From: Dehalococcoidia bacterium
GTDB taxonomy: Bacteria; Chloroflexota; Dehalococcoidia; Lucifugimonadales; UBA1127
Direction of reading: 5' to 3'
Length of the DNA stretch: 36,282 nucleotides
Assembly (NCBI GenBank): GCA_029936935.1
Contig: JAPYRQ010000018.1
Span: 1-36,282, forward strand
Numbering within the stretch: position 1 is the first letter of the stretch; each line of letters opens with the position of its first letter. Below are positions 1,815 through 20,697 of this stretch, one piece after another. The position numbers were made by a program, and so were the translations under genes. The notes under the pieces were generated by a model. It was not told where the DNA came from. It ran no database searches and was given only the letters and a program-made list of their open reading frames with translations.

Positions 1815-1964
1815 ATAAATCTCCTTCAATCGGAGAGCATGCTATGGCGAGCACCGGTGCCAGTCAAGGAGTGAGGTAATGGAATATTTGCTGTCTGATG
1901 ACTATACTGACCGCATCAGGGGGGTGGGGGAGTGTGGACGATATCCCTACCAAGGAGAAGATCC

Positions 1965-2825
1965 ATGAGTGAAGTAGCACCTAGAGCAGAGAAGGTAGAA
2001 CTTGCAGAACTGCGAGATGCCATCCGCGCGGAGTATGGAGCCGTGGCTATCGACCCCGAGGCGGGTTATCACTTCAATGCCGGGCGAGAACTGCCTGCGA
2101 CGCTAGGTTACAAACGAGAGTGGCTGGATGGCATCCCTGAGGAGTCTATAGCAGCGCTCGTGGGCACAGGCAACCCATTCGCCCTTGGTGCTCTCAAACC
2201 CGGTGAGAACGTGATAGATATGGGCTGTGGTGGCGGCATCGATAGCCTCATTGCAGCCAAGATGGTTTGCCCCACCGGCAAGGTCATCGGCGTGGACATG
2301 ATACCGGAGATGCTAGACCGTGCTCGAGCGGCAGCGGTTAAGACAGGACTCTCTAACGTAGAGTTCATTGACGGAGTAGCCGAGTCGCTGCCCGTGCCCG
2401 ATGGCTGGGCGGACGTGGTCATCTCCAACGGCGTGTTGAACTTGCTGCCGGACAAGGTGGCTGGCATTCAAGACATGTACCGGGCGCTGAAGCCCACCGG
2501 CAGGTTGCAGATAGCCGACATCACGGTATCCAGAGCAGTGCCGGATGCTGCCAAGCTCGACCTCGATTTATGGACGGGGTGAATCGCTGGTGCTCTGCTG
2601 GGTGCAGAGCTTCAGGCGGCTGTGGTGACAGCGGGACTCGTGGACTTTGAAATCACCTGGAAAGAGAACATCTACGCCGGTGCCCCCCCGGAATCGAACG
2701 CAGAGGACTATGGGACACTGGGTATCAACTTCCATGCGAGGAAGCCGGTAAATGAAGCGGAGTGGACGGCAGCGTTGCAGGCATTGTCTTGCGATGCGCC
2801 ACAGGCATGGGCCGAGGTCAATTAG
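1965..2825 (+). CDS. ArsM-like SAM methyltransferase, candidate selenoprotein (TGA at 2580-2582 read through)
   Basis: ATG at 1965 follows AAGGAG at 1952-1957. The frame is open to an in-frame TGA at 2580-2582 (codon 206) and then continues to TAG at 2823-2825, giving 286 residues. Residues 83-91 (VIDMGCGGG) are SAM motif I, followed by VIGVDM, and SNGVLNLLPDK is typical of ArsM-like methyltransferases. The segment around the TGA reads LWTG-[TGA]-IAGALLG. From memory, family members have LWxxC(I/V)AGAL here, so TGA takes the place of a conserved Cys. After it the expected C-terminal motifs continue (AGLVDFEI, and a final beta-rich segment). A perfect hairpin follows the TGA (separate entry). 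The arsenic-binding cysteines of true ArsM are not obvious (GTGNP and SNGVLN instead of Cys-containing versions), so the substrate is unknown. Alternatives are a pseudogene or a sequence error, but the Cys position and hairpin favour selenocysteine. Confidence 0.8.
2580..2610 (+). promoter_or_regulatory. Candidate bacterial SECIS hairpin after in-frame TGA
   Basis: Nine bases after the TGA there is a perfect 7-bp inverted repeat, GCTCTGC at 2592-2598 and GCAGAGC at 2604-2610, closing the 5-nt loop TGGGT. The loop starts 16 nt after the TGA and has G in its second position. Both features match the published general description of bacterial SECIS elements: a stem-loop immediately downstream of UGA with a G among the first loop bases. 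The hairpin lies inside the coding sequence, as bacterial SECIS elements do. Function is inferred. Confidence 0.7.
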
Positions 2826-2858
2826 AGGGACGAAGAGGAAGCACAGGGAGGGGACGAT

Positions 2859-4151
2859 ATGGCTACAAGCACTGGACGAAAGACCTATAACGTTGGTGGA
2901 GTACTGCTGAACCAGCCGTTCAAAATCCGACGACTGGGGCACTTCGGGTTCAACGTCTACAAAATCGATGAATGCCTGGAGTTCTATCGCGACTTCCTGG
3001 GCTTCAAGGTCTCCGACGAGAACGACTTCAAAGCCAACCCTGACCCGAAGATTCAGGAGTGGCTAAAGGACGTGGAGAGCGGCAAGGGTTACTTCATGCG
3101 CTATGGCACGGATCACCACGCATTCGTGTTGTTCAACGCTGCGGCAATGATCGCCATGGCGGAGGGTCGCGCTGCCGAGAACGGCAACTCCACGGAGGGC
3201 ATGACCGGCGCCCACGGCATGAACATCAACCAGATAACGTGGCAGACGGGCACGCTCTCTGAAGTCACGGGCGCGTACCACTACTTCATGGAGCGCGAGA
3301 TTCCCATTATGCGGGTGGGCCGCGATATGCCGGGGAGCAATTGGCACGTTTACGCCTACGACCCCGATGGCCACATCAACGAGCTGTACTACGGCATCGA
3401 GCAGGAGGGCTGGAACGGTCGCAGCAAGCCACGCGATATGTACGACCGCCGTTTCCGCGAGGAGCCCACGTTGCCCCAGATGCCTGAAGAGGACGAGGTT
3501 GATGAGGCCATCGCCAAGGGGACTGATATCCACTCGGGCTATCGCAGCGACGAGCCGCTACCAGCTAACTTCGATGTGGGCGGCGTCCTTCTTGGCAGGC
3601 CTTTCAAGATTACCAAGATTGGCCCCGTGAACCTCTTCGTGAAGGACCTTGGGGCATCGCTGGACATGTACACGGACGGCCTGGGCTTCACCCTCACGGA
3701 GACCGTGGAGTACAAGGGACACAAGGTCGCATTCCTTCGCAATGCTGCTGAACACCACACGTTGGGCCTCTTTCCTGAGGAGCTGCGCAAGGAGCTTGGC
3801 TGGCCGGACGTCTCCACCTGCATGTCCTTCGGTATTGAGCTGGGGAGCTACCAGCAGCTGAAGGACGCTGTCTCCTTCCTGAAAGAGCGAGGCGTGTCGT
3901 TCATGGACCTGCCTGCTGAGCTACACCCCGGCATTGACTACGCGGTGTACGCCCTAGACCCGGAAGGCAACGGCATCATGCTCTACTACTACATGGAACA
4001 GCTTGGCTGGGAAGGCAAACCCCGACCTGTCGAGCTTCGACGTAAGGTCGATGCCGCTGCCAGCACCCACAACGTGGAAGCGTGGCCAGAGGCGCTGGAA
4101 CCGATGTCGGACACGTACGTCGACCAGGTGTTCCAAGGCCCTCTCGGCTAG
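2859..4151 (+). CDS. Two-domain VOC (extradiol dioxygenase/glyoxalase-like) protein
   Basis: The protein has 430 residues and ATG at 2859 follows GGGAGGGG. It contains two vicinal-oxygen-chelate domains. The first (residues about 22-185) starts LGHFGFNVYKIDECLEFYRD and ends DPDGHINELYYG. The second (about 248-395) starts GPVNLFVKDLGASLDMY and ends DPEGNGIMLYYY. Domain 1 keeps a plausible 2-His-1-Glu metal site: His28, His86 or His87, and the Glu of NELYY. In domain 2 the first His is Asn and the Glu is Met, so it probably does not bind metal. This resembles catechol 2,3-dioxygenase-like proteins that cleave aromatic rings, but the substrate cannot be named. It follows the ArsM-like gene by 33 bp and precedes a YciI-like gene, suggesting one catabolic operon. 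Confidence 0.85.
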   Translation: MATSTGRKTYNVGGVLLNQPFKIRRLGHFGFNVYKIDECLEFYRDFLGFKVSDENDFKANPDPKIQEWLKDVESGKGYFMRYGTDHHAFVLFNAAAMIAMAEGRAAENGNSTEGMTGAHGMNINQITWQTGTLSEVTGAYHYFMEREIPIMRVGRDMPGSNWHVYAYDPDGHINELYYGIEQEGWNGRSKPRDMYDRRFREEPTLPQMPEEDEVDEAIAKGTDIHSGYRSDEPLPANFDVGGVLLGRPFKITKIGPVNLFVKDLGASLDMYTDGLGFTLTETVEYKGHKVAFLRNAAEHHTLGLFPEELRKELGWPDVSTCMSFGIELGSYQQLKDAVSFLKERGVSFMDLPAELHPGIDYAVYALDPEGNGIMLYYYMEQLGWEGKPRPVELRRKVDAAASTHNVEAWPEALEPMSDTYVDQVFQGPLG

Positions 4152-4170
4152 CTAGGCGAGCCCTGGACCC

Positions 4171-4192
4171 ACGAGGGCGAACCCTCGACCCA
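4171..4192. repeat. Dispersed palindromic repeat, copy 1
   Basis: CGAGGGC, three bases, then ACCCTCG is followed by ACCCA. The same 22-base unit with 19 identities occurs at 12031-12052, and a related unit occurs inverted at 32311-32332. It lies just after the VOC gene stop codon. It resembles an intergenic REP-type element; a role as terminator or mRNA stabiliser is possible but unproven. Confidence 0.6.
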
Positions 4193-4233
4193 TATTCTTG
4201 TGGTTACCCAAGGATGTTCAAAGGAGTAGCGCC

Positions 4234-4569
4234 ATGTGGTATTTGACGTTCTCGAAACCTGCTGCAACCAGGGAGCAGATTATGCCCCACTTGCAGGAGC
4301 ATCTGGATTGGCAGCGAAAGGCCCATGACTCAGGGGGCATGTTGTACTCTGGCCCTTCAGCCGACTTCTCGATGGGTATCATGCTGCTGCGTGCGGGCTC
4401 TCTCGATGAAGCGAAGCAGACACTGGACTCTGAGCCGTTCCACAAGCTTGGTCTGCGTACCTACGAGATTATTGAATGGGATGTCCATCAAGGGATGGGC
4501 ATCGGCGGGTTCACCTCAGAGAGTCTCGCTTTGCTTGGCCAGGAAAAGACTATAAGGGCCAGCCCTTAA
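4234..4569 (+). CDS. YciI-like (dimeric alpha-beta barrel) protein
   Basis: This 111-residue protein starts at ATG 4234, seven bases after AAGGAG at 4221-4226. The sequence (MWYLTFSKPAATREQIMPHL, then HDSGGMLYSGP, a MGIMLLRAGSLDEAKQ stretch and YEIIEWDV) fits the YciI / muconolactone-isomerase-like ferredoxin-fold family. The pattern of short beta strands around a helix with DEAKQTLDSEPFHK is typical. Such proteins often accompany aromatic or chlorinated-compound degradation genes, as isomerases or lactone-processing enzymes, but many have no known reaction. It sits between the VOC dioxygenase-like gene and the amidohydrolase gene in the same direction. The C-terminal 25 residues (GMGIGGFTSESLALLGQ) are an extension beyond the core fold. 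Confidence 0.7.
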   Translation: MWYLTFSKPAATREQIMPHLQEHLDWQRKAHDSGGMLYSGPSADFSMGIMLLRAGSLDEAKQTLDSEPFHKLGLRTYEIIEWDVHQGMGIGGFTSESLALLGQEKTIRASP

Positions 4570-4667
4570 CCCATATGACCTGACGGTTACCAAAGAGAAT
4601 TGACCAGCGAATCGTCCTTTCCCTTTGGCTTTGCTCGGGGAAGGCTGTAGGAAAAGAGGAGTTGACC

Positions 4668-5573
4668 ATGCGAACCATAGATACCCACGCGCACATCGTG
4701 CCCCAGGACTGCCTGGAGCTGCTGCCAGAACAGTTGGACACCAGAACACTGGTCGGCGACATGACGGACGTTGATGTCCGACTGAAAGAGATGGACGAGT
4801 CCGGCATAGAAGTGCAGGCTCTCTCCGGGTTCCTGGCACTCCTCAACAAGGATGTAGCCACGGCTCGACAGTTCAACGACTCGCTGGCCCGCGTGGTTGC
4901 AGCGCACCCTGATCGGTTTGTTGGTCTGGCCCTCGCGCCGATGGCTGAGCCCGAAAAGGCACCGGCGGAGCTTAATCGCGCGGTGAACGAGCTTGGCATG
5001 GTTGGTGTGGGCATCGCATCGAACATCAACGGAATGAACCTGGACGCCAAAGAGCTTGGCCCCTTCTACGCCAAGGTGCAGGAGCTGGACATCCCCATCT
5101 TCATCCATCCCGCCAACGTGTTGGGTCAGGACCGGTTGGCTGACTGGTATCTCAGCAACTTCATTGGCAACGTGACAGACACCGCTGTGGCCGCTGCAAG
5201 CATCATATTCGGTGGGGTGTTCCAGGCATTCCCCAGACTTAAGATTTATCTTGCCCACGGTGGCGGAAGCTGCCCGTACATCCGCGGTCGATGGGATCAC
5301 GGCTGGCAGGCCCACGAGACCGGCTCCAAGATTACCAAGCCGCCCAGTGAATACATGCGACTCTTCTACTTCGACGCGCTGACACACTCGGCGCAGACGT
5401 TGCAGTATCTGGTGGAGTCGTTCGGCCATGACAAGGTCATGCTTGGCTCCGACTACCCCTTCGATATGGGTGATATCGACCAGGTGGGACACATCAGCAA
5501 AGTGGACTTCCTGACGGACGCCCAAAAGGCAGACGTCATGGGCGAGACCGCGGCCAAGCTATTCAAAATCTGA
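4668..5573 (+). CDS. Amidohydrolase 2 family (ACMSD-like) metal-dependent hydrolase
   Basis: The protein has 301 residues with ATG at 4668 after AGAGGAG; a TTG two codons earlier is less likely. It is a TIM-barrel amidohydrolase of the ACMSD / 2-hydroxy-benzene-decarboxylase group. It shows the N-terminal metal motif DTHAHIVP, IPIFIHPAN in the middle, YLAHGGGSCPY (a metal His), and LGSDYPFDMGD near the C-terminus (the metal Asp). Members decarboxylate or hydrolyse ring-cleavage products and related carboxylates. The position after the VOC and YciI-like genes fits a ring-cleavage pathway, but the substrate is not known. A ~100-bp gap separates it from the YciI-like gene. Confidence 0.85.
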   Translation: MRTIDTHAHIVPQDCLELLPEQLDTRTLVGDMTDVDVRLKEMDESGIEVQALSGFLALLNKDVATARQFNDSLARVVAAHPDRFVGLALAPMAEPEKAPAELNRAVNELGMVGVGIASNINGMNLDAKELGPFYAKVQELDIPIFIHPANVLGQDRLADWYLSNFIGNVTDTAVAAASIIFGGVFQAFPRLKIYLAHGGGSCPYIRGRWDHGWQAHETGSKITKPPSEYMRLFYFDALTHSAQTLQYLVESFGHDKVMLGSDYPFDMGDIDQVGHISKVDFLTDAQKADVMGETAAKLFKI

Positions 5574-8952: not shown

Positions 8953-10230
8953 CTAGGAGATTACGTTGATCTCCTTCAGCACCTCTGCGTCCTGGTCAAA
9001 CATAACGTCTCGTGGCAGGACTGCGCTGCTGGAGCGTAGCTGATAGTGCTCCGGGTGAGAGGTGGAAGCTGGCTCTATGCCCTCCTCAAGCTCCCGTGCT
9101 GCTCTGATAAGCTGCCGACGCATCGCGATGATGGCGGTGTCACTGGTGCCAAGGTGTTCGTAGCTCCGGTCGACCACTGAACCCATCGTCTCAATCATTG
9201 CAGCGTCCTCGACGCGCCCGGTGCCCCGTGGCAGTCCGGCATAGGTTTTCGTCTTCTGCATCTCACGGTCGATTAGGTAGTCATTCCCCAGATTTGCTTT
9301 GCCTATCCACTTGCCCGGCTCCAGGTTACGGCAGGCTCTGATCTCATACTTTTCTGAATCTAGCATCGGGCGCAGCGGATGCCAGTGGCTCAAGAACACC
9401 CACGTTGAGTCGTCGTCGCGCGGCACCCACATACGGCACCGGACAAAGGAGTTCTCGCCCGTGCCTGGCTCCCGTGGCGTCATGGTGTAGAAGGGGAACA
9501 TCCACTGGGTGATGCGCCAGTAGTAGCTATCGGCCTCTGCCGGACGGCGTGCTCCGATGAGCAGCCCATAGTCCATGTCCTTCACGAAGAAGTGGGCCCA
9601 ACGCTCGTTGTACATGAACCTACCACCCGATGTGGTGGCTGTTGGCGCGATAGCCTGGGCGTCCAGGTTGCTGTGCAGGAACGATGCGTGGACGGTATCG
9701 ATCTCGCCTTCAACGGCCTGAACGAAGTTGGATTCATAGATGAACTTCGCAAACCCCCGGTTCTCCTCCGGCAGGTGCATCCACTCGAAGTCTGGCATCT
9801 CCGGCATTACCTCCGCCGGGCCCATGTACACCCAAACGAAGTTCGATTGCTCTCTGGTGGGATATGCGGTGATCTTCACTTTGTCTTTAAAGTTGCTTTC
9901 GGCGGGCTCTGACGGCATGTCGACGCAATCGCCGTTGATGTCGAACTTCCACCCGTGGTAGACGCAGCGCAACCCGCACTCTTCGTTGCGACCGAAGAAC
10001 ATGCTTGCTCGACGATGCGGGCAGTAGTTGTCGATAATGCCGACGTCGCCGTTGGTGTCTCGGAACGCGATAAGGTCCTCGCCCATGAGTTTGACGCGAA
10101 TGGGTGGGCAGTCGGGCTCCGGTAGCTCCTCAGACATGAGCGCTGGAAACCAGAACCGCCGTAGATAGGTACCCATCATCGTGCCAGGGCCAACCCGACA
10201 CATCAATTCGTTTTCTTCTTGTGTAAGCAT
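8953..10230 (-). CDS. Rieske non-heme iron oxygenase, alpha subunit (second copy)
   Basis: ATG at 10230 follows GGGGAGG and gives 425 residues; a longer frame upstream runs through a dispersed repeat and is not coding. The Rieske site is Cys70-Pro-His72 and Cys89-x2-His92, the same positions as in the other Rieske protein of this window. The mononuclear iron site is VEGEIDTVHASFLH, with Asp178, His181 and His186. The family is the phthalate 4,5-dioxygenase-like oxygenases acting on aromatic compounds. The two proteins share long near-identical N-terminal blocks (for example GRNEECGLRCVYHGWKF) but diverge in the catalytic domain, which suggests duplication followed by change of substrate. The small VOC gene follows 43 bp downstream on the same strand, so the two are probably cotranscribed. 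Confidence 0.92.
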   Translation of the reverse strand: MLTQEENELMCRVGPGTMMGTYLRRFWFPALMSEELPEPDCPPIRVKLMGEDLIAFRDTNGDVGIIDNYCPHRRASMFFGRNEECGLRCVYHGWKFDINGDCVDMPSEPAESNFKDKVKITAYPTREQSNFVWVYMGPAEVMPEMPDFEWMHLPEENRGFAKFIYESNFVQAVEGEIDTVHASFLHSNLDAQAIAPTATTSGGRFMYNERWAHFFVKDMDYGLLIGARRPAEADSYYWRITQWMFPFYTMTPREPGTGENSFVRCRMWVPRDDDSTWVFLSHWHPLRPMLDSEKYEIRACRNLEPGKWIGKANLGNDYLIDREMQKTKTYAGLPRGTGRVEDAAMIETMGSVVDRSYEHLGTSDTAIIAMRRQLIRAARELEEGIEPASTSHPEHYQLRSSSAVLPRDVMFDQDAEVLKEINVIS

Positions 10231-10316
10231 TGTTTTCCTCCCCTGTTGTGGTGTGAGGCTAGTCCTCGATAGAAGCATCGTCAAGGCGTCATTTCGCTGA
10301 GTGTGCCCTTGCCATC

Positions 10317-10353
10317 GAAATTCTGGACACCGGCTTTCACCGGTGTGACAATG
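10317..10353. repeat. Dispersed palindromic intergenic repeat
   Basis: TTCTGGACACCGGCTTTCAC continues with CGGTGTGACAATG, so ACACCGG and CCGGTGT form a hairpin. It resembles the widespread intergenic repeats of the form CTGGATTCCGGCTTTCGCC. A related copy lies at 20774-20857. It sits between the amidase stop and the Rieske start. Confidence 0.6.
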
Positions 10354-10369
10354 CCTTCCCTTTTCGTAG

Positions 10370-11776
10370 CTACAGAACTGGTCGCTGTGTGTGCCAGTCC
10401 GTTCGGGCCTGGTATGCGCCACCAATCTGGAAGAGCGTTGCCTCGTCGAAGGGCCGACCCACAAGCTGCAAGCCCACAGGCAGGCCGCTATCGGTGAACC
10501 CGCAGGGTATCGACATCGCAGGCACGGCGGCTAGGTTGAACGGCCCACGGTGGGCGCGGATGCCGAAGAACTGCCGCATGACGGCGTCCTTGCTGTCCAG
10601 GCCTGTGTCCGTGGCGATAGGCGGTGCCGGTTGCGACTGCGCGGGGGTTACTAGCACATCGACGCCTTCCAACGCTGCCAAGACCTGTCGTCGCATGATG
10701 ACGCGGAATCGCATCGCCTTCTGGTACAAGTGCGCTGGCATGAGGCTGGCTGCCAGCAATCGACGGCGTGTGGCGAAGTCGTATTCAGCGGCGTGGGCTG
10801 CCAACCGTTCGCGATGGACGTAGGCGGCGTCTACGTCTGCTACACCATTGGAGAGCAGCCCACCCTGGGGGAACAGCGGGATAGAGGCTTCCACTACCTC
10901 CGCGCCAGCCTCTCGCATGACGGTTACCGCCTCCTCGCACCGCTGTTGTACTTCGCTGTCTACCATGCCGTCGCCAATGGCCTCACGTATCACGCCGACG
11001 CGCTTACCTTTCAGTGATTCCAAAGGCTGGTAACTTGGCGGTGACTTGTGGGACGTGTATGCATCGTTGGGATCAAACCCAGCGATGGCCGCGAACACCG
11101 TGGCGCAGTCTTCTACCGTGCGCGTCATGGGGCCCGCCTGATCCATCGACCAACTCATTGGCAGAATACCGTGTCGACTCACCCGACCCCACGTTGGGCG
11201 AAGGCCCGTGATGCCGCACCATGATGCTGGGCCGCGGATGGAGCCTGACGTGTCCTCACCGATGGCTGCGGCGCACATGGATGCTGCTACCGCAATGCCC
11301 GAACCGCTGCTGGACTGACCTGGTTGCCGATCCGTGTCCCAGGGGTTGCGGGGCACGCCGTATGGGTGGTTGATGCTGCCGCCCAGGGCGAACTCGCTCA
11401 GGTTGAGCTTTCCTAACAGCACCACGCCTGATTCGCGTAAGCGAGCTACTACAGTGGCGTCCGCCGTTGCCACATCCTTGAGGATGCTGGAGCCTGCGGT
11501 GGTTGGCAGTCCCTTGGCGTCCATCTGGTCTTTGACGGCCATCGGAATGCCGTGAAGGGCGCCGACTCGGCGCCCGTTGCTTATCGCAGACTCCGCTTCT
11601 CGCGCCGATGCAAGTGCACCTTCGGCGTCGATGGTGATGAATGCGTGGAGTCGCTCGTCCAACGATGCGATGCGGTCGAGGTACGCTTGAGTCAACTCAA
11701 CAGGGCTGAGTTTCTTCGCATCAAGGAGTCCGGAAAGCTCTGCGACCGATGCATGAATGAGGTCGTCGTTCGCCAT
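10370..11776 (-). CDS. Amidase-signature family hydrolase (GatA/AtzF-like)
   Basis: The protein has 468 residues with ATG at 11776. The amidase signature is complete: the catalytic Lys82 in GIPMAVKDQMDAKG, a Ser-rich loop at about residues 155-160 (GQSSSGSG), and the nucleophile Ser179 in GEDTSGSIRGPASWCG, forming the Ser-cisSer-Lys triad. Such enzymes hydrolyse carboxamides; GatA uses the same fold in tRNA-dependent amidation. GatB is absent nearby, and the SIRGP variant with a small GatC-like partner resembles catabolic amidases (allophanate hydrolase or biuret hydrolase-type neighbours), so I favour a catabolic amidase over a tRNA amidotransferase. The GatC-like gene ends one base before this start, so the two are translationally coupled. 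Confidence 0.88.
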   Translation of the reverse strand: MANDDLIHASVAELSGLLDAKKLSPVELTQAYLDRIASLDERLHAFITIDAEGALASAREAESAISNGRRVGALHGIPMAVKDQMDAKGLPTTAGSSILKDVATADATVVARLRESGVVLLGKLNLSEFALGGSINHPYGVPRNPWDTDRQPGQSSSGSGIAVAASMCAAAIGEDTSGSIRGPASWCGITGLRPTWGRVSRHGILPMSWSMDQAGPMTRTVEDCATVFAAIAGFDPNDAYTSHKSPPSYQPLESLKGKRVGVIREAIGDGMVDSEVQQRCEEAVTVMREAGAEVVEASIPLFPQGGLLSNGVADVDAAYVHRERLAAHAAEYDFATRRRLLAASLMPAHLYQKAMRFRVIMRRQVLAALEGVDVLVTPAQSQPAPPIATDTGLDSKDAVMRQFFGIRAHRGPFNLAAVPAMSIPCGFTDSGLPVGLQLVGRPFDEATLFQIGGAYQARTDWHTQRPVL

Positions 11777-20620: not shown

Positions 20621-20697
20621 TGGCGACCCCGACGGGATTCGAACCCGTGATCTTCGCCGTGACAGGGCGATATGTTGGGCCACTACACCACGGGGCC
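20621..20697 (-). tRNA. tRNA-Asp (GTC)
   Basis: On the minus strand the acceptor stem GGCCCCG pairs with CGGGGTC (one G-T). The anticodon stem TCGCC/GGCGA closes the loop CTGTCAC, giving anticodon GTC for aspartate. The T-arm ACGGG-TTCGAAT-CCCGT is perfect and the 3' CCA is encoded (20621-20623). A promoter lies just upstream and a terminator follows. Confidence 0.97.

Follow-up and report, generated by a model that had tools for sequence, protein, structure and literature searches.

A predicted selenocysteine-containing, ArsM-like methyltransferase clade of Chloroflexota lacking two of the three ArsM arsenic ligands

Results

The locus and its reading frame

The window analysed here, i.e. 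the whole 36,282-nucleotide stretch of contig JAPYRQ010000018.1 from a Dehalococcoidia bacterium (assembly GCA_029936935.1), carries close to its start a methyltransferase gene with an in-frame TGA, the features of which are as follows.

1952..1957, + strand: Shine-Dalgarno-type ribosome-binding site AAGGAG, 7 nt 5' of the ATG at 1965 (read directly)
1965..2825, + strand: Sec-containing ArsM-like SAM methyltransferase, 286 aa plus TAG (translation, profile matches, homologs, structure model)
2166..2168, + strand: codon 68, Thr, at the position of the CmArsM arsenic ligand Cys72 (phmmer alignment to 4kw7/5eg5)
2430..2432, + strand: codon 156, Gly, at the position of the CmArsM arsenic ligand Cys174 (phmmer alignment)
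2580..2582, + strand: in-frame TGA, predicted Sec206, at the position of the CmArsM arsenic ligand Cys224 (direct reading, phmmer alignment)
2592..2610, + strand: predicted bSECIS hairpin, 7-bp stem 2592-2598/2604-2610, loop UGGGU 2599-2603 (folding, homolog comparison)

When 1965-2825 is translated with TGA as a residue, a single internal TGA is found, at codon 206, ahead of the TAG stop at 2823-2825. Its context is LWTG-[TGA]-IAGALL, the motif reported in the initial annotation, the further claim of which, that the frame continues in phase past TGA 2580-2582 into family-typical C-terminal motifs, is borne out by translation and by the homologs.

A glyoxalase/dioxygenase-superfamily gene (2859-4151, 430 aa) begins 33 bp downstream, its product being distant to HpaD and catechol 2,3-dioxygenase, and an amidohydrolase gene lies further downstream (4662-5573). 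Recurrence of these two genes near homologs was not found, and none of the genes out to 8 kb from the methyltransferase gene recurs beside most homologs. Elsewhere in the window lie two convergent genes for Rieske oxygenases with a LigXa-type C-terminal domain (PF19301; 6856-8385, + strand, and 8953-10464, − strand) and a tRNA gene (20624-20697, − strand), the sole Rfam match in the window.

Codon 206 in homologs

A contig scan with the single protein returned three loci only, so the comparison was carried by genome searches, i.e. of 393 genomes of the class, the matches in which were read directly, and of genomes of the phylum, from which further loci were also read. The clade to which the window gene belongs has the motifs FHFHTG, AGTGNPF, ISNGVxNL and LWSG-U-IAGALL; the classical ArsM rows have GCGNP, ISNCVINL and GCIAGAL, with Cys in all those read. 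Codon 206 is TGA in 46 aligned clade rows, one of which (L014) is from a Gemmatimonadetes MAG, and Cys in two clade rows within the class set (L059 and L064); other Chloroflexota genomes add five TGA rows and three clade Cys rows (L163, L166 and L167). In the rows read from the class and the phylum, codon 206 stands for Sec or Cys and for nothing else, in agreement with the earlier proposal that TGA stands in place of a conserved Cys. In a tree made with column 206 masked, L059 and L064 are nested well inside the Sec rows and, by the simplest reading, Cys would have replaced Sec in both.

The nearest homolog (L088) is 62% identical to the window protein. In a sister Dehalococcoidia genome (L015, genome G337) only the first 109 codons are present: at L015:5328 the DNA jumps from window position 2292 to 4497, the Sec half and the next, glyoxalase-like, gene being gone. 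Either genuine loss of DNA or a misassembly could explain this jump, which shows at most that the gene is losable. Viral contigs gave no match to the window protein, and phages gave distant methyltransferases only.

The SECIS hairpin

The hairpin reported in the initial annotation, with a 7-bp perfect stem, a TGGGT loop and the right spacing, is exact (GCTCTGC 2592-2598, TGGGT 2599-2603, GCAGAGC 2604-2610), with 16 nt from TGA to loop. The published rules for bacterial SECIS elements specify a loop of 3-9 nt, a stem of 4-16 bp, a G within the first two loop positions, a distance of 16-37 nt from UGA and an MFE of at most -7.5 (PMC13188914); the hairpin agrees with every one of them, having a 5-nt UGGGU loop with G at position 2, 7 bp, a 16-nt distance and -11.9 kcal/mol. 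The 19-nt hairpin has z -3.4, with 0/200 shuffles equalling it; against protein-preserving codon shuffles the window sequence alone has a modest excess of stability (z -2.0, p 0.043). This single-sequence energy test is weak on its own, and it is the comparison of homologs that is decisive.

All seven stem pairs form in 39/46 Sec rows versus 0/17 Cys rows, and under protein-preserving shuffles the Sec rows have a mean z of -1.31, compared with -0.03 in the Cys rows. The stem Ala codon at +4 is GCT in 40/43 rows and that at +8 is GCA in 40/41, whereas in the rest of these genes GCT and GCA account for 12% and 12.5%, respectively, of Ala codons; the Ala codon at +2, outside the stem, is GCC in 39/46. 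Because the rows share ancestry, raw p-values for this codon bias are inflated and the counts are treated as descriptions. Compensated stem changes occur in L038 (CTAC/GTAG, which costs an Ala-to-Val change) and in L070 (C-G replacing U-A). Formal covariation analysis gives two pairs, a count that 8/500 shuffles reach; the stem varies so little that double changes are rare. Where codon 206 is TGA, synonymous sites hold the hairpin constant; where it is Cys, the hairpin is gone. Three Sec rows (L042, L046 and L162) have, instead of the common form, a shifted stem with a 3-nt loop, e.g. ACTCCTC-GTG-GAGGAGT.

Selenocysteine machinery

The source genome (2.05 Mb, 94.6% complete) has the full set of selA, selB, selC and selD, with scores of 555 bits for selA, 341 bits for selB (above cut-off), 380 bits for selD and 70.8 bits for tRNA-Sec. 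The selD gene (G000:C99:11065-11988) has one in-frame TGA of its own, and SelD of this genome is therefore probably itself a selenoprotein. Across the class, SelB is above cut-off in 31/41 Sec-carrying genomes, and is below cut-off or not found in both Cys-carrying genomes, G051 (96% complete) and G222 (72%). The 10/41 Sec-carrying genomes without SelB over the cut-off are mostly incomplete, yet also include G041 (94%) and G114 (93%).

The selenoprotein reading put forward in the initial annotation is thus supported by the homologs, the sel genes and the conservation of TGA alike, and decoding of UGA 2580-2582 as selenocysteine appears close to certain. A sequencing error, i.e. the doubt that resequencing might reveal TGC, is excluded, since dozens of genomes assembled independently of one another keep the TGA. 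That TGA is read as some other amino acid, via an altered code or leaky readthrough, is extremely unlikely: support for such a reading was not found in this analysis, and the full Sec machinery and the SECIS hairpin argue against it, as does the finding that Cys is the only other residue at this codon.

Fold and family assignment

Pfam profiles, including PF13847, match above cut-off and identify a SAM methyltransferase. The best NCBIfam matches are to the ArsM group, although the score against NF008823 (222.7 bits) is below the curated cut-off of 263. UbiE/COQ5 methyltransferases (PF01209) have the SAM-binding core in common with the window protein, but their match is weaker than that of the ArsM families. 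By sequence, the PDB yields CmArsM and a further arsenite methyltransferase, 5evj, and a fold search places ArsM entries first (Z 26.9); CmArsM, CrArsM and human AS3MT (4fr0, 6cx6, 5evj and 8xt7) have the same fold (Z 20-27) at about 30% identity. The description "ArsM-like" in the initial annotation is hence right by both sequence and fold.

The SAM motifs lie within the first 205 codons, which, along with the 3' loss in the sister genome L015, could be taken to mean that translation truly ends at the TGA, or that the TGA arose by nonsense mutation, the 3' part being a relic. However, the AlphaFold model (pLDDT 85.5, pTM 0.86) has a helix at 213-222 and strands at 226-234 and 252-259 after the TGA; in this model the post-TGA part completes the methyltransferase fold, and a product stopping at TGA would miss the last core strands. 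Together with retention of TGA, downstream motifs and hairpin over dozens of genomes from many families, this makes a true stop very improbable. It was on conservation that a nonsense mutation, a sequencing error and recoding to a different residue were discarded. Overall, we are highly confident that the gene is full length, with Sec decoded, and that its product has an ArsM fold from which the arsenic site of ArsM is missing, a statement that implies no substrate.

Loss of the arsenic ligands

In the phmmer alignment with CmArsM, Sec206 falls on Cys224, Gly156 on Cys174 and Thr68 on Cys72, 5eg5 being a C72A mutant in which the Ala aligns with Thr68. Almost all clade members have Thr or Val at the Cys72 position, and every one read has Gly at the Cys174 position, where classical ArsM has Cys. 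Cys72, Cys174 and Cys224 are reportedly conserved among ArsM enzymes (PMC5552862), and the CmArsM study describes C174A and C224A as giving no arsenic methylation and C72A as having lost arsenite methylation (PMC3877260). The alignment shows that, of the three residues with which ArsM binds arsenic, the clade has lost two and keeps only that at the Cys224 site, as Sec206. By its fold, then, the Sec protein is ArsM-like, whereas its set of ligands is not that of an arsenite methyltransferase; arsenite methylation, which was not claimed outright in the initial annotation, is unsupported because two of the three ligands are missing.

The source genome has a second ArsM (L095, G000:C15:3126-3707) with GCGNP, SNCVVNL and TGCISG motifs, which scores over the NF008823 cut-off. 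A selenium-boosted true arsenic methyltransferase, in which arsenic is held by Sec206 with small-molecule thiols, or as DMAs(III) by one ligand, nevertheless has several points in its favour: the closest characterised structures are all ArsM/AS3MT; a Sec arsenite methyltransferase with a UxxG motif is already catalogued (PMC13188914); and DMA(III) is described as bound by one cysteine in the CmArsM study (PMC3877260). Set against these are the clade-wide substitutions at the Cys72 and Cys174 positions, the inactivation of CmArsM by C174A and C224A, the three-Cys ArsM already present in the same genome and the sub-threshold NF008823 score, and we regard such an enzyme as rather unlikely.

Gene context of the clade

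Genes for rhodanese, ArsR-rhodanese, metallo-beta-lactamase-rhodanese or sulfide:quinone reductase (SQR)-like proteins lie within 5 kb at 15/47 clade loci versus 0/14 classical ArsM loci, a difference with a Fisher p of 0.013 that is only indicative because the loci share ancestry. In 11 clade loci such a gene is within 400 bp, and in several it is 24-52 bp upstream on the same strand as the Sec methyltransferase gene. At L111, L136 and L137 an ArsR-rhodanese gene on the opposite strand is followed by an MFS gene, a metallo-beta-lactamase-rhodanese gene and, 40-52 bp on, the Sec methyltransferase gene. SQR-like flavoproteins are encoded at L135:2039-3268, L127:1447-2700, L088:2688-3917 and L143:2569-3726, the one at L088, the nearest homolog, being two genes from the Sec methyltransferase; their matches to NF049943 (type III SQR, selenoprotein subtype) are well below cut-off.

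The link to sulfane-sulfur chemistry is a lead. Sulfur detoxification, in which Sec206 would take sulfide or sulfane sulfur from rhodanese/SQR partners for methylation to methanethiol or methyl persulfide, accords with this context and is a tentative possibility. It is tempered by the absence of the context at most loci, the window included, where the neighbours are not sulfur genes, as well as by the relatedness of the loci and the low scores of the SQR-like matches.

Discussion

The combined loss of ligands, presence of a three-Cys ArsM in the same genome and sulfur-gene context of the clade make a substrate other than arsenite likely. In the mechanism that we consider the most likely, SelB and Sec-tRNA would bind the hairpin at 2592-2610 and decode UGA 2580-2582, all of the necessary parts being present, so that a class I SAM-dependent methyltransferase belonging to the ArsM branch is made at full length; by alignment, Sec206 occupies the site of the essential arsenic ligand Cys224. 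Arsenite would probably not be held in the ArsM fashion, given the two ligands missing clade-wide; instead, the Sec206 selenolate would hold or activate one soft acceptor, one-handed, beside SAM, and the acceptor would then be methylated. As to its identity, a sulfide or persulfide species is conceivable, if short of probable, while a mono-coordinated arsenical such as DMAs(III) and another soft metal(loid) or chalcogen are each somewhat unlikely. The composite picture, of a widespread Chloroflexota Sec-methyltransferase clade that has abandoned arsenic and whose lone selenolate methylates sulfide/persulfide or another soft one-handed substrate in partnership with rhodanese/SQR detoxification genes, is speculative.

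The kind of enzyme is known: a Sec arsenite methyltransferase (ArsM, PRK11873/NF008823) has been listed in one review with the motif UxxG, citing Fomenko et al. 2007 (PMC13188914), and is also listed in a second (PMC9312934). The window protein is likewise an ArsM-like methyltransferase with Sec in UxxG (U-I-A-G), but it falls below the NF008823 cut-off and is without the Cys72 and Cys174 ligands of CmArsM. The fusion selenoproteins NF041537 (ArsM/AhpD), NF041536 (ArsM/DUF2284) and NF047649 (methyltransferase/UXPK-star) have the UxxG motif in common with it and match over the methyltransferase part with 229, 207 and 204 bits, respectively. These scores are far below the cut-offs of 510, 575 and 460, and the window protein is without the second domain or second Sec; membership of these families was rejected on score and architecture (286 aa, one TGA). 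No NF047649 match over cut-off was found in 301 genomes of the phylum. The deep-Sep main text does not mention the family to which the window protein belongs. What appears to be new is a clade of Sec forms that keeps neither of the remaining arsenic ligands and has a frequent sulfur-gene context.

Ordinary annotation would end such genes at the TGA and might label them arsenite methyltransferases. Since the clade occurs in dozens of genomes, arsM counts made by homology in arsenic-cycling surveys may include enzymes without an arsenic site. The pairs of Sec and Cys forms, in which a SECIS element is gained or lost, constitute a clean comparison supplied by nature, and because it retains only the Cys224 equivalent, in Sec form, the enzyme allows a direct test of what this residue does.
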